Assembly (NCBI RefSeq): GCF_009932475.1
Contig: NZ_BJOV01000001.1
Coordinates: 186,001-250,000, forward strand
Source: Gordonia spumicola
GTDB lineage: Bacteria > Actinomycetota > Actinomycetes > Mycobacteriales > Mycobacteriaceae
Direction: 5' to 3'
Length of the DNA: 64,000 nucleotides
Below, one piece after another: positions 30,293 through 33,193 of the stretch (position 1 is the stretch's first letter; the number at the start of each line of letters is the position of its first letter). The position numbers were made by a program, and so were the translations under genes. The notes beneath the pieces are model-generated. The model was not told where the DNA came from. It saw nothing but the letters and a program-made list of their open reading frames with translations, and did not search any database.

Positions 30293-30682
30293 GTGGACTG
30301 GAGTTCGTTCTGGGGTGTGCTGTGGTACACCGTGTTGGTTTTCGCGTTCGTCGCCTACCTGATCGTGCTGTTCCAGGTGCTGACGGACCTGTTCCGTGAT
30401 CACACGCTCGGCTCGGGTGCCAAGGTGCTGTGGATCATCGGCCTCATCGTCCTGCCGTACCTGACGGCGTTCGTGTACGTGGTCGCCCGCGGCAAGGGCA
30501 TGACCGAACGTTCGCGTGCGACGGCGCTCGCCGTCGACAAGGCGAATCAGGAGTACATCCGCAACGCTGCGGGCAAGGCGTCGCCCGCCGAGCAGATCGC
30601 GACCGCGAAGTCGCTGCTCGACGCGGGCGTGGTGTCGCAGGAGGAGTACGACACCCTCAAGGCCAAGGCCCTCGCGTCCTGA
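30293..30682 (+). CDS. PLDc_N and SHOCT domain membrane protein
   Basis: This is a 129-aa protein with two transmembrane helices (about residues 8-30 and 44-66) matching the phospholipase D N-terminal (PLDc_N) domain. A C-terminal SHOCT motif follows (EQIATAKSLLDAGVVSQEEYDTLKAKAL, 99-126). No catalytic phospholipase domain is present. GTG 30293 follows AGGAAAGG at about 30276. Such proteins are common in actinobacteria and have no assigned role. Confidence 0.82.
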   Translation: MDWSSFWGVLWYTVLVFAFVAYLIVLFQVLTDLFRDHTLGSGAKVLWIIGLIVLPYLTAFVYVVARGKGMTERSRATALAVDKANQEYIRNAAGKASPAEQIATAKSLLDAGVVSQEEYDTLKAKALAS

Positions 30683-30701
30683 CCTGCGCTCATCGAGCAC
30701 G

Positions 30702-30736
30702 ACGGCGATCCCCGCTCCGGCGGGGATCGCCGTTTC
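30702..30736 (+). terminator. Intrinsic terminator after the SHOCT protein gene
   Basis: ACGGCGATCCCCG (30702-30714) pairs perfectly with CGGGGATCGCCGT (30721-30733) around CTCCGG, followed by TTCT. It is 20 nt after the stop. Confidence 0.9.
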
Positions 30737-30829
30737 TCGTCGGGGCGCATGTCGTCGCCCGCGAATTGTCGCCGCAGGCAGATAGTGTTGGTGGCGACGG
30801 CACACGTCTGCCGGGGAGAGGGGACGGCA

Positions 30830-31705
30830 TTGGCGACGCGCATCGACAGTTGGATATGGGCGATCCGACTGACCAAGACCCGGTCCGCCGCGGGTGCGGC
30901 CTGCCGCGCGGGTCACGTCCGCCTCAACGGGGTCACGGCCAAGCCGTCGGCGCAGGTGTCGATCGGCGACCGCGTCACCTACCGTGCCGACGGTCGGGAA
31001 CGGATCGTCGAGGTCACCGGACTGATCGCCAAACGCGTGTCCGCGCCGCTCGCCGCGGAGAACTACATCGACCACAGTCCACCGCCGCCTCCCCGTGAGG
31101 TGATCGCTGCGATCCCGCGCAGGGACTCGGGTGCGGGCCGACCGACCAAACGCGAACGACGCCAGCTCGACCAGTTCCGCGGCGGCGCGTTCCTCGTGGT
31201 CATCGCGGCCGTCGTCATGCTCCTCGTCGGCGCGTGCGGCGACGACTCGTCGGACTCCGCCGACAGCACAGCGGAGCCCAAGACCGGCACCGGACCAGAT
31301 TTCGACAGGTGCGGCGGCCTCACGACCGAGGACGTAGCCCGGCTCACCACCATCACCGGTATGACCCTCGCCATCGACAACCCGTCCACCTGCGAGTGGC
31401 GCAACGGGCCGTCGCGCGCGGCGACCGCGTCGTTCAACTGGTACCGCGGCTCGCCGATCGGACGCGAACGGGGAACCGAGCAGCTCTCGCGCGATCACAC
31501 CCAGGACCACAGCGTCGGCGGACAGCCTGGGTTCATCGCGAGCTCGGGCGCCATCTGCGAAGTCGGTGTCGCGTGGGACGCAGACTTCATCGAGATATCG
31601 CTGCGCGCACCGACGACGCTCGACGGCGAATCGACGATGCCGACCGACAAGGTCTGCGACGGGGCGAAGGCCCTCGCCGACTTCGTGGTGAAGAGGGCGT
31701 CATGA
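30830..31705 (+). CDS. S4 RNA-binding domain fused to a DUF3558 lipoprotein domain
   Basis: This is a 291-aa single reading frame. Residues 1-118 form an Hsp15/RqcP-like S4 domain protein (RIDSWIWAIRLTKTRSAAGA...AGHVRLNG, then the usual C-terminal GRPTKRERRQLDQFRG). Normally such proteins end there. Here the frame continues into GGAFLVVIAAVVMLLVGAC (residues 118-136), a membrane segment with a lipobox-like VGAC, then a DUF3558 domain (FDRCGGLTTEDVARLT, CEWRNGPSRAATASFNWY). TTG 30830 follows GGGAGAGGGGA. Internal in-frame GTG 31196 or ATG 31217 could start a separate lipoprotein but would lack a basic n-region and a clear Shine-Dalgarno. Confidence 0.7.
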   Translation: MATRIDSWIWAIRLTKTRSAAGAACRAGHVRLNGVTAKPSAQVSIGDRVTYRADGRERIVEVTGLIAKRVSAPLAAENYIDHSPPPPPREVIAAIPRRDSGAGRPTKRERRQLDQFRGGAFLVVIAAVVMLLVGACGDDSSDSADSTAEPKTGTGPDFDRCGGLTTEDVARLTTITGMTLAIDNPSTCEWRNGPSRAATASFNWYRGSPIGRERGTEQLSRDHTQDHSVGGQPGFIASSGAICEVGVAWDADFIEISLRAPTTLDGESTMPTDKVCDGAKALADFVVKRAS

Positions 31706-32253
31706 CTTCGACGATCCGAAAAGCGATCACCCTCGCCGCCTTCGCCCTGGCAGTGGTTCTGGGCGTCGCGTCATGCACGGTCGACGGAACACCCGTCCGT
31801 CAGGGACGTGACGTCGGCACCGACACCGGACACGTCGACACCGACAAGTTCGAGAAGCTCCTCGCCGAATGCGAGATCCTGCCCGCCACGCAGATCGCGA
31901 AGGCGGTCGGCGGGTCCATCGCCTCGCCTGGATTCTTCGGAGCGAACTGCCGGTGGGTCGTGACGACGCCCGCGGTCGTCGACGTCACGTTCAACTGGTT
32001 CGAGTGGGGCGACTTCAACCACGAGAAGGACACCGCCAAGAGACTCGGGTTCACCACCGACAACATCCAGGTGCAGAGCAGCGCGGCGTTCACCGCCCGC
32101 GACCCGAAGCGTCCCGCGGTCTGCGGTGTCACCGCCAAGGCCCCGATGGGCGGGATCTACACCTGGTGGGTCGAGCCGTCGACGGCGTCGGCAGGCGACG
32201 CGTGCGCCGCGCCGATCAAACTGATGGAACTGATCCTCACCGGCTCGTACTGA
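31702..32253 (+). CDS. DUF3558 family lipoprotein
   Basis: This is a 183-aa exported lipoprotein. ATG 31702 overlaps the upstream stop (ATGA). A signal peptide ends in lipobox GVASC (Cys25). The DUF3558 domain has FEKLLAECEILPATQIAKAVGG, NCRWVVTTPAVVDVTFNWFEWG and AVCGVTAKA, with four mature Cys. It is paralogous to the C-terminal half of the preceding fusion protein. DUF3558 is mainly an actinobacterial surface domain of unknown role. Confidence 0.87.
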   Translation: MTSTIRKAITLAAFALAVVLGVASCTVDGTPVRQGRDVGTDTGHVDTDKFEKLLAECEILPATQIAKAVGGSIASPGFFGANCRWVVTTPAVVDVTFNWFEWGDFNHEKDTAKRLGFTTDNIQVQSSAAFTARDPKRPAVCGVTAKAPMGGIYTWWVEPSTASAGDACAAPIKLMELILTGSY

Positions 32254-32310
32254 TCTCGGGTCGTCCTCGCAGCGCGCGCTTGTGTCCCGTGCCAGGCGGG
32301 GCCCAGCGCA

Positions 32311-32360
32311 GTTAAGGGGTGAATCGGTGTCGCGTGGTGACACCGATTCGCCCCTTAAGC
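32311..32360. terminator. Bidirectional terminator hairpin
   Basis: TTAAGGGGTGAATCGGTGTC pairs with GACACCGATTCGCCCCTTAA (one G-T wobble) around a 7-nt loop, between two convergent genes. The A- and T-rich ends allow function on both strands. Confidence 0.85.
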
Positions 32361-32371
32361 GTCAAATCAAT

Positions 32372-33193
32372 CTAGTCGCGGGGTATGACTGCGACCGAGA
32401 CGGACGCCGCGGTGACCAGGGCGTCGTCGTCGCCGGGGATCAACAGCCACAGGAGCAGGCAGTCGTCGAGGCGCTGACGGCGGACGGTGATCGGGACGCC
32501 CGGCGTCACCGGGCGCAGATACTCGATGACGGCGCGGTGGGGACCGTCGAGCAGATCGAGGTGATCGACCAGTTCGTCCTCGACGGCCGCGAAGTAGGCG
32601 GCGTTGTTGAGATGGCGGAACGGATCGAAGTCGGTGACGCGCAGGACGTGCTCGCGGTCGGGCAGGTCGACGTCCGACGCCGGCGGAGCCTCGCCCGGGT
32701 TCATCGCCTTCCAGCGGAGACGATGCTCGTCGGTCATCTCGGTGAGGGTTCGCATCGCGGTGTCGCTGATGCGGGCGGGCATTCCGCTCTCGGTCATGTT
32801 GATCCAGAACGCGTTGGTCTCCACGTGTCCGCCGGGTCGCGGCTCGGGATTGAACCGATTGGTCTGGGCCGTGCCACGGATCGTCACCCGCATGTCGGTC
32901 CATCGGGTCGAGAACGCGCCGCACCAGCGTTCCACCCGGAAGTCCGACGGCCAGGTCAGCGGCTCGAAGACGTCGATGACGGTCCGGCGGATGATCCAGA
33001 ACGGGTCGGTGTCGGCGAAATCGGTGACGGCGATGTTGTCGTTGGCGACGTCCTGCAGATAGCGGGCCAGGCCGTCGAGGCGCACGCGCATCTCCTGATC
33101 GATGTCGCCGGTCCGCACCCGGTAGTCGGCCGCGTAGAACGGCGCTCCGGTTCGTCGGACGGTCATCGGTTCGTATGGATACGGTGTGCTCAC
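32372..33193 (-). CDS. Acyl-ACP thioesterase family protein (double hotdog)
   Basis: This is a 273-aa protein with two hotdog domains as in FatA-type acyl-ACP thioesterases. The first half has YRVRTGDIDQEMRVRLDGLARYLQDVAND and WIIRRTVIDV. The second has DFDPFRHLNNAAYFAAVEDEL, with HLNN as the likely active-site patch. It would release fatty acids from ACP or CoA. GTG 33193 has GAGGAAG upstream. Confidence 0.85.
   Translation of the reverse strand: MSTPYPYEPMTVRRTGAPFYAADYRVRTGDIDQEMRVRLDGLARYLQDVANDNIAVTDFADTDPFWIIRRTVIDVFEPLTWPSDFRVERWCGAFSTRWTDMRVTIRGTAQTNRFNPEPRPGGHVETNAFWINMTESGMPARISDTAMRTLTEMTDEHRLRWKAMNPGEAPPASDVDLPDREHVLRVTDFDPFRHLNNAAYFAAVEDELVDHLDLLDGPHRAVIEYLRPVTPGVPITVRRQRLDDCLLLWLLIPGDDDALVTAASVSVAVIPRD

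Follow-up and report, generated by a model that had tools for sequence, protein, structure and literature searches.

The closest described relatives of the S4 part of the protein considered here are the S4-domain proteins Hsp15 (HslR) and RqcP (YabO). In Escherichia coli, Hsp15 is described as stabilising P-site tRNA on stalled 50S subunits, and the S4-domain pair given as defining the Hsp15 group is Arg2 and Asp4 (Bacillus subtilis RqcP numbering; PMC11317155). The same source assigns to the RqcP class the motif K14-R15-R16 and a C-terminus no more than 110 residues from Arg2, and names Arg2 and Arg16 of RqcP as essential (PMC11317155). The Streptomyces Hsp15 (SCO1991) is reported as enriched among ribosome-associated proteins under tetracycline (PMC7157823), and one review describes actinobacteria as being without RqcH and RqcP (PMC8327144).

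In Gordonia spumicola, an Hsp15-like S4 protein runs uninterrupted through a lipobox into a DUF3558 domain. The gene lies within a window of 64,000 nucleotides, the whole stretch of DNA analysed (contig NZ_BJOV01000001.1, positions 186,001 to 250,000), and coordinates below are positions in this window. The presence of a ribosome-rescue factor and an exported lipoprotein in one chain is unexpected. No earlier description of the fusion was found in the literature on DUF3558 lipoproteins, Gordonia S4 lipoproteins and Hsp15 fusions, and a literature search for lipoproteins with an N-terminal cytoplasmic domain or signal anchor cut by signal peptidase II likewise returned none.

Gene structure

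The features of the fusion gene and its surroundings are collected in Table 1. An earlier note, made from the letters of this DNA, had described one unbroken frame joining an S4 protein complete to its tail, a lipobox at Cys136 and a DUF3558 domain, followed by a DUF3558 gene with its own signal peptide. All of this holds: the frame runs open from a TTG start to a TGA stop, both Pfam domains score above their cut-offs, the Hsp15 homology reaches residue 116-119 with its RPxK..RR tail, the Cys of the VGAC lipobox is present in all 56 intact fusions, and the next gene encodes a DUF3558 protein that has its own signal peptide.

Table 1. Position of the fusion gene, its parts and nearby features in the window.
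Feature	Position	Strand	Evidence or remark
Hsp15-like S4 / lipobox helix / DUF3558 fusion gene	30830..31705	+	291 aa plus stop; unbroken
S4 RNA-binding domain, residues 4-49	30839..30976	+	PF01479, 37.9 bits vs cut-off 22.8
Whole Hsp15-like part, residues 1-119, RPTKRERR tail included	30830..31186	+	phmmer to PDB and model-vs-structure match
GRPTKRERR tail, residues 103-111, putative basic n-region of fused signal sequence	31136..31162	+	near-invariance, low dN/dS
Predicted single helix, residues 107-134, from Hsp15 tail into hydrophobic segment	31148..31231	+	AlphaFold2 model
Lipobox Cys136 (VGAC)	31235..31237	+	Cys in 56/56 intact fusions
DUF3558 match, residues 131-288	31220..31693	+	PF12079, 80.5 bits vs cut-off 34.1 (Pfam gathering)
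Shine-Dalgarno-like purine stretch preceding TTG 30830	30812..30824	+	sequence
TAGTGT, weak -10-like hexamer of TANNNT type, 47 nt before fusion start	30783..30788	+	sequence
Second, stand-alone DUF3558 lipoprotein with own signal peptide	31702..32253	+	4-nt overlap with fusion

The frame also offers an upstream ATG at 30749, but the TTG at 30830 is favoured as the start, since relatives begin at the same residue and a Shine-Dalgarno-like stretch precedes it. The codon aligned with this TTG in the 56 intact Gordonia fusions is ATG in 38, GTG in 11, TTG in three and a non-start codon in four. A TANNNT hexamer occurs within 100 nt upstream of the fusion in 30 of the 56 genomes and is missing there in 26, and a sigma-70 consensus scan of 30600-32400 found no promoter. 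An AlphaFold2 model of the fusion, made like the alignment used throughout (alignment A1) from 47 of the 56 intact Gordonia sequences, comprises an S4 fold, one helix, a linker and a DUF3558 fold; its mean pLDDT is 81.9 and its pTM 0.47, so that the arrangement of the domains is uncertain.

Behind the fusion, 52 of the 56 genomes have a lipoprotein-like frame that overlaps it by the same 4 nt. In two genomes, G010 (L020/L051) and G006 (L021/L050), tandem DUF3558 copies stand behind the fusion, and since one of them is ~44% identical to the fused domain, this suggests local duplication. Upstream on the same strand (30293-30682) lies a small membrane-type protein with a SHOCT match above cut-off and a PLDc_N-like match just below it. 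A palindrome at 32303-32366, between convergent genes, has a 22-pair inner stem (-44.1 kcal/mol, z -8.0) and recurs at nine further places in the genome with 80-93% identity (17 matches listed, seven being other-strand readings); it is a dispersed palindromic repeat, perhaps a mobile or terminator-type element.

Conservation across Gordonia and beyond

Whether the fusion is conserved had been left by the earlier note to a search of related genomes, which found this frame uninterrupted in 56 of 59 Gordonia genomes, one per species. A match is present in 58 of them, two having split frames and one (G074) none; fusion identity in relatives is 52-78%. G074 carries one DUF3558 match elsewhere, and its lack of the fusion is either a true absence or an assembly gap. 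Of the 58 matching genomes, the 56 with an intact frame enter the counts of Cys, starts, promoters and dN/dS, with the named duplicates (L031-L038) and repeated loci (L050, L051, L073) left out. Among named records, eight, every one of them from Gordonia, match the whole fusion (residues 1-290 or 1-291), and the other three matches are from Kitasatospora and cover residues 2-119 only. Among the matches listed for 401 genomes sampled from the family (53 Gordonia and 348 others, a split counted from rows; at most six candidates scored per genome), none outside Gordonia is an unbroken fusion, and the nearest of these, G093, has one TGA between S4 and DUF3558. No further fusion appears among the matches listed for a class sample of 394 genomes. 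In a tree of the first 85 S4 residues (98 for L074; 58 Gordonia and 20 outgroup rows), Gordonia falls on one side of a single branch with support of 98/91, a rough value from few columns, consistent with a single origin of the fusion.

The two split genomes, G018 (L047) and G021 (L048), both inside the fused clade of the S4 tree, have their S4 and DUF3558 halves in different frames, with the change in the same proline-rich stretch. The two frame changes differ in kind, neither lipoprotein half has a start codon at codons -45 to -14 before the Cys, and the split could reflect an error of assembly, slippage or a recent loss. Perhaps the fusion can be dispensed with; alternatively, assembly errors or gaps may account for the split and missing cases. 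These two relatives are the one observation that speaks for a sequencing or assembly artefact or a strain pseudogene, a reading whose probability is close to negligible, as 56 genomes of as many species agree and the eight named Gordonia records match end to end; for this window, an artefact is refuted by the same genomes and records. Selection along the frame was estimated from 73 close pairs of intact Gordonia fusions in seven segments. The dN/dS is 0.13 in the S4 core, 0.18 in residues 61-99, 0.02 in the tail (100-111), 0.23 at the joint, 0.48 in the hydrophobic part, 0.30 in the linker and 0.26 in DUF3558. All seven values, that of the joint included, are below 1, which shows the frame to be evolving as a coding sequence without interruption at the joint. 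The S4-lipobox-DUF3558 fusion is confirmed as real and not a local error.

Origin from two neighbouring genes

Twenty outgroup loci of the same family, taken from the strongest matches, have the S4 gene without the fusion; a DUF3558 gene lies directly behind it in 13 and is absent there in seven. The outgroup S4 proteins end ...KRERRETDRLRGR-stop or alike. The 13 loci with an adjacent DUF3558 gene (L074-L082, L086-L089), used for the promoter count, include near copies (L075-L078; L080/L086/L087; L088/L089) and represent about seven independent cases. In all 13, TA[C/G]ACT and a spacer of exactly 7 nt precede the GTG of the lipoprotein gene, which is in frame with that gene's own signal peptide and lipobox. 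The S4 stop codon forms the first part of the hexamer in L082, and the hexamer starts 2 nt after the stop in L074. In Mycobacterium tuberculosis, 73% of primary start sites are reported to have TANNNT centred 7-12 bp upstream (PMC3898074); the spacing in the outgroups is that of leaderless promoters.

None of the 56 Gordonia junctions (141-156 nt each) contains TANNNT. Because windows of 150 nt in these frames seldom hold the hexamer in any case (17 of 840), its absence points to promoter loss, not to selection against the motif. Given a leaderless-type start in every one of the 13 outgroup loci and no TANNNT at any Gordonia junction, the S4 stop was lost together with the promoter, start and n-region of the lipoprotein, with a single deletion as the simplest account. 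A Gordonia ancestor would have lost the DNA between hsp15 and the downstream DUF3558 lipoprotein gene, comprising the S4 stop, the leaderless-type promoter with its start, and the signal-peptide n-region of the lipoprotein, and a single polypeptide would have been made ever since. The earlier note had proposed loss of the stop between two neighbours. Descent from two neighbouring genes stands, but the event is neither recent nor local, being shared by 56 of 59 genomes, and went beyond the stop, since the lipoprotein has also lost its leaderless-type promoter, its start codon and its n-region.

Read-through of an ancestral stop was considered and rejected. The two genes share a frame in seven of the 13 outgroup loci (L074-L078, L080, L081) and occupy different frames in six (L079, L082, L086-L089); near-identical S4 genes differ in this respect (L080 vs L086 and L087), so there is no conserved read-through. 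L074 (genome G093) has a different fusion in the same cluster: its S4 gene stands alone, but the two DUF3558 domains that follow are joined in one 332-aa frame.

Translation of the lipoprotein half

A single open frame could still yield two products by internal initiation, near 31196-31217 or upstream, with the open frame as a by-product of tight packing. The start scan covered codons -45 to -14 before the Cys; starts at -13 or nearer, in the hydrophobic part, were listed and left uncounted. At least one in-frame start codon occurs in this interval in 39 of the 56 intact fusions, most often at -19 (17/56; 16 ATG and one TTG), as internal initiation would have it. However, no internal start position is common to all 56, and in 17 the interval holds no ATG, GTG or TTG, which excludes separate starts there; this share (30%) is close to the 29% that codon use predicts, so no selection against starts is shown. 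In this window, the sole start codon in the interval is a GTG at -45. Pairing with the anti-Shine-Dalgarno sequence averages -6.1 kcal/mol at 52 S4 starts and a weak -1.1 at 51 internal starts, 10% of which reach -5 kcal/mol; the mean at 604 internal codons frame-wide is -2.3 kcal/mol. The junctions, as noted above, are free of TANNNT. The codons at 31196 and 31217, where separate initiation had earlier been envisaged, are codons -13 and -6 before the Cys, inside the hydrophobic stretch; initiation there would give no n-region and is unlikely, there being no start common to all relatives. A separate lipoprotein start is unsupported by the scans of the 56 intact fusions for start codons, Shine-Dalgarno pairing and TANNNT plus start, and two products by internal initiation are highly improbable.

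The Hsp15-like S4 part

Homology to Hsp15 extends over residues 3-116 or 3-119, RPxK..RR tail included (phmmer against PDB; 5z81, E 3e-13; 1dm9, E 5.5e-11), and the RqcP/YabO match is weaker (E 0.0026). The modelled S4 part superimposes on 5z81 with Z 16.1 (rmsd 1.7, 95 aligned), on 1dm9 with Z 15.7 and on 8ap4 with Z 13.6. Residues R4 and D6, invariant in all 47 aligned fusions, are the Arg2/Asp4 pair of Hsp15 in B. subtilis RqcP numbering. The C-terminal basic tail RPxK..RR is present, although as a family mark it is a reading of the alignment; in GRPTKRERR, eight of nine residues are invariant across the 47 fusions and E109 is nearly so. Against the NCBIfam Hsp15 equivalog NF007673, the fusion reaches 45.8 bits, below the cut-off of 148. 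Nor is there a free soluble end after the tail, from which the frame continues for 172 residues, and in 56 of 59 genomes it passes into DUF3558.

The invariant triplet at the site of the RqcP K-R-R motif is K16-T17-R18 (47/47), and from Arg4 there are 115 residues to residue 119 and 287 to the true end, outside the RqcP limit of 110. RqcH (NFACT_N) was found above cut-off in none of the 59 Gordonia genomes, 13 of which have partial matches of 19-22 bits against a cut-off of 31; this agrees with the review cited above (PMC8327144). On these sequence grounds, K-T-R in place of K-R-R and no RqcH above cut-off in 59 genomes, the S4 part, initially described as Hsp15/RqcP-like, is nearer Hsp15 than RqcP.

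By phmmer register, R4 and R18, both invariant in the 47 aligned fusions, correspond to Arg2 and Arg16 of RqcP. As the matches to these essential arginines are invariant and the Streptomyces Hsp15 is enriched at ribosomes, the S4 part probably retains its ability to bind ribosomes. Its Hsp15 function might instead have been lost, leaving an oversized signal-peptide n-region and nothing else, a view that can appeal to the loss of a free C-terminus; it is a very faint prospect, given that dN/dS in the S4 core (0.13) is below that of the DUF3558 part (0.26) and that R4 and R18 are invariant.

Four S4 matches in this genome are above cut-off, the fusion being one and the others lying in frames of 202, 309 and 374 aa. 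From these lengths, and because the fusion query finds no second place in the genome, we infer these three to be uS4 and a pair of larger enzymes, not Hsp15-like proteins. Neither the profile search for S4 nor the search with the fusion protein gave a second Hsp15-like copy in this genome among the matches listed. Genus-wide, one weak match of the S4 part elsewhere was recorded, in genome G032 (residues 19-103, 33%, E 2.2e-4).

Joint, lipobox and proposed processing

The order at the Gordonia joint is KRERR, a few residues, the hydrophobic stretch and the Cys. In all 56 intact fusions, KRERR and the lipobox Cys are 22-27 residues apart and the 17 residues before the Cys have a mean hydropathy of 1.4-2.8; the Cys itself is invariant in the 47 aligned. 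The strict lipobox [LVI][ASTVI][GAS]C fits 34 of the 56, or 50 if G is allowed at -2, and six are unusual (GSAC in four, ATGC in one, FSSC in one). In the AlphaFold2 model, block means of pLDDT are 64-72 for residues 101-130 and 48 for 131-140, and the linker (residues 135-148) is of low confidence, under 50. The arrangement departs from a short N-terminal signal peptide in that the Cys stands at residue 136, after a predicted folded S4 domain, and the 116-residue stretch ahead of the hydrophobic part is far longer than the usual lipoprotein n-region.

The preferred reading, held with a little over even confidence, is that one polypeptide enters the membrane and is then probably cleaved at Cys136, giving an Hsp15 with a tail anchor and a lipoprotein at the cell surface. 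The earlier note had named two fates for a true fusion, tethering to the membrane or a cut by signal peptidase II, and both stay among the readings weighed here. The N-terminal S4 domain would remain cytosolic, the KRERR tail of Hsp15 would provide the fused signal sequence with its positively charged n-region, and the following ~16-20 residues would insert N-in/C-out, with export of the DUF3558 domain. Lgt and LspA would most likely lipidate and cleave at Cys136, so that residues 1-135 remain as a tail-anchored Hsp15 on the inner side of the membrane and the rest becomes a surface lipoprotein. Three LspA-family matches are present in the genome (G000:C5:1620514-1620933, 505510-505926, 1206964-1207362); many bacteria have one LspA. 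Because no other Hsp15-like S4 protein was found in the genome, the ribosome binding of Hsp15 would be done at the membrane, its natural clients being 50S subunits stuck on the translocon. We infer membrane insertion, cleavage and membrane-bound ribosome rescue by the fusion from this set of observations.

Cleavage by LspA might be followed by release, a site-2 protease freeing Hsp15 to the cytosol and the fusion serving as a neutral means of expressing two proteins. Two M50-family protease matches are present in the genome, one of them above cut-off at 178 bits, and both halves of the fusion are constrained in dN/dS; in pheromone production, signal peptides are described as site-2 protease substrates (PMC10202637). 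The conserved spacing from tail to Cys fits membrane insertion but says nothing of release, and a released Hsp15 is considered rather improbable.

The exported part has, besides the lipobox Cys, four Cys that are invariant in the 47 aligned fusions (C161, C188, C243 and C276). Its model aligns to Dip2269 (3v7b, Z 12.5), TiME (7cu8, Z 11.8), the extracellular sensor domain of PknH (4esq, Z 11.6, rmsd 3.5, 126 aligned), PsbP (Z 9.3), LpqN (6e5d, Z 8.7) and Mog1 (Z 8.7). The kinase PknH consists of a cytosolic domain, one span and a sensor domain of similar fold. The alignment to PknH, the four further invariant Cys, as found in exported disulfide-bearing domains, and the single helix that joins the S4 and DUF3558 parts in the model could together indicate an uncleaved one-span receptor of PknH-like layout, with DUF3558 as envelope sensor and Hsp15 as cytosolic output. 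Such a receptor is unlikely, however: the lipobox Cys, needless for a plain signal anchor, is kept in 56/56, PknH is one of several matches of a common fold whose likeness shows no function, and the low-confidence linker at residues 135-148 intervenes between the parts.

If the preferred reading of insertion and cleavage at Cys136 is followed further, it would mean that the only Hsp15 has moved to the membrane for good and that the cut-off signal peptide is a working RNA-binding protein beside the translocon, so that each surface lipoprotein made yields one rescue factor for export-stalled 50S subunits; the PknH-like domain may report envelope stress. This extension is tentative, plausible enough to state and clearly short of even confidence. 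Gordonia offers a natural test of whether Hsp15 acts on ribosomes at the membrane, since the fusion is retained in the genus and this genome yielded no free Hsp15-like copy. One genus, set against its relatives, would also illustrate how the C-terminal tail of one protein can become the signal-peptide n-region of another as a leaderless-type promoter is lost.

Comparison with known systems

The S4 part shares with Hsp15 (HslR) its homology, including the RPxK..RR tail, its fold and the Arg/Asp pair. The matched PDB chains are 104-142 aa long, whereas in the fusion the tail runs into a predicted membrane helix and a putative exported domain. With RqcP (YabO) it has in common the S4 fold (7aqc, Z 13.6) and R4/R18 at the positions of the essential arginines, but it carries K-T-R where RqcP has K-R-R, and all 59 Gordonia genomes are without RqcH above cut-off. 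The envelope domains Dip2269, TiME, PknH sensor and LpqN share the fold of the DUF3558 part at a sequence identity of 6-13% in those four; the fusion differs from them in that it has no kinase and its predicted cytosolic part is an RNA-binding domain. With the actinobacterial DUF3558 lipoproteins, the fused copy shares the domain, the lipobox and the conserved Cys. The neighbour at 31702 is an ordinary member of this group and every one of the 13 outgroup neighbours has its own N-terminal signal peptide, whereas the fused copy is without one and would have the Hsp15 tail as its n-region.
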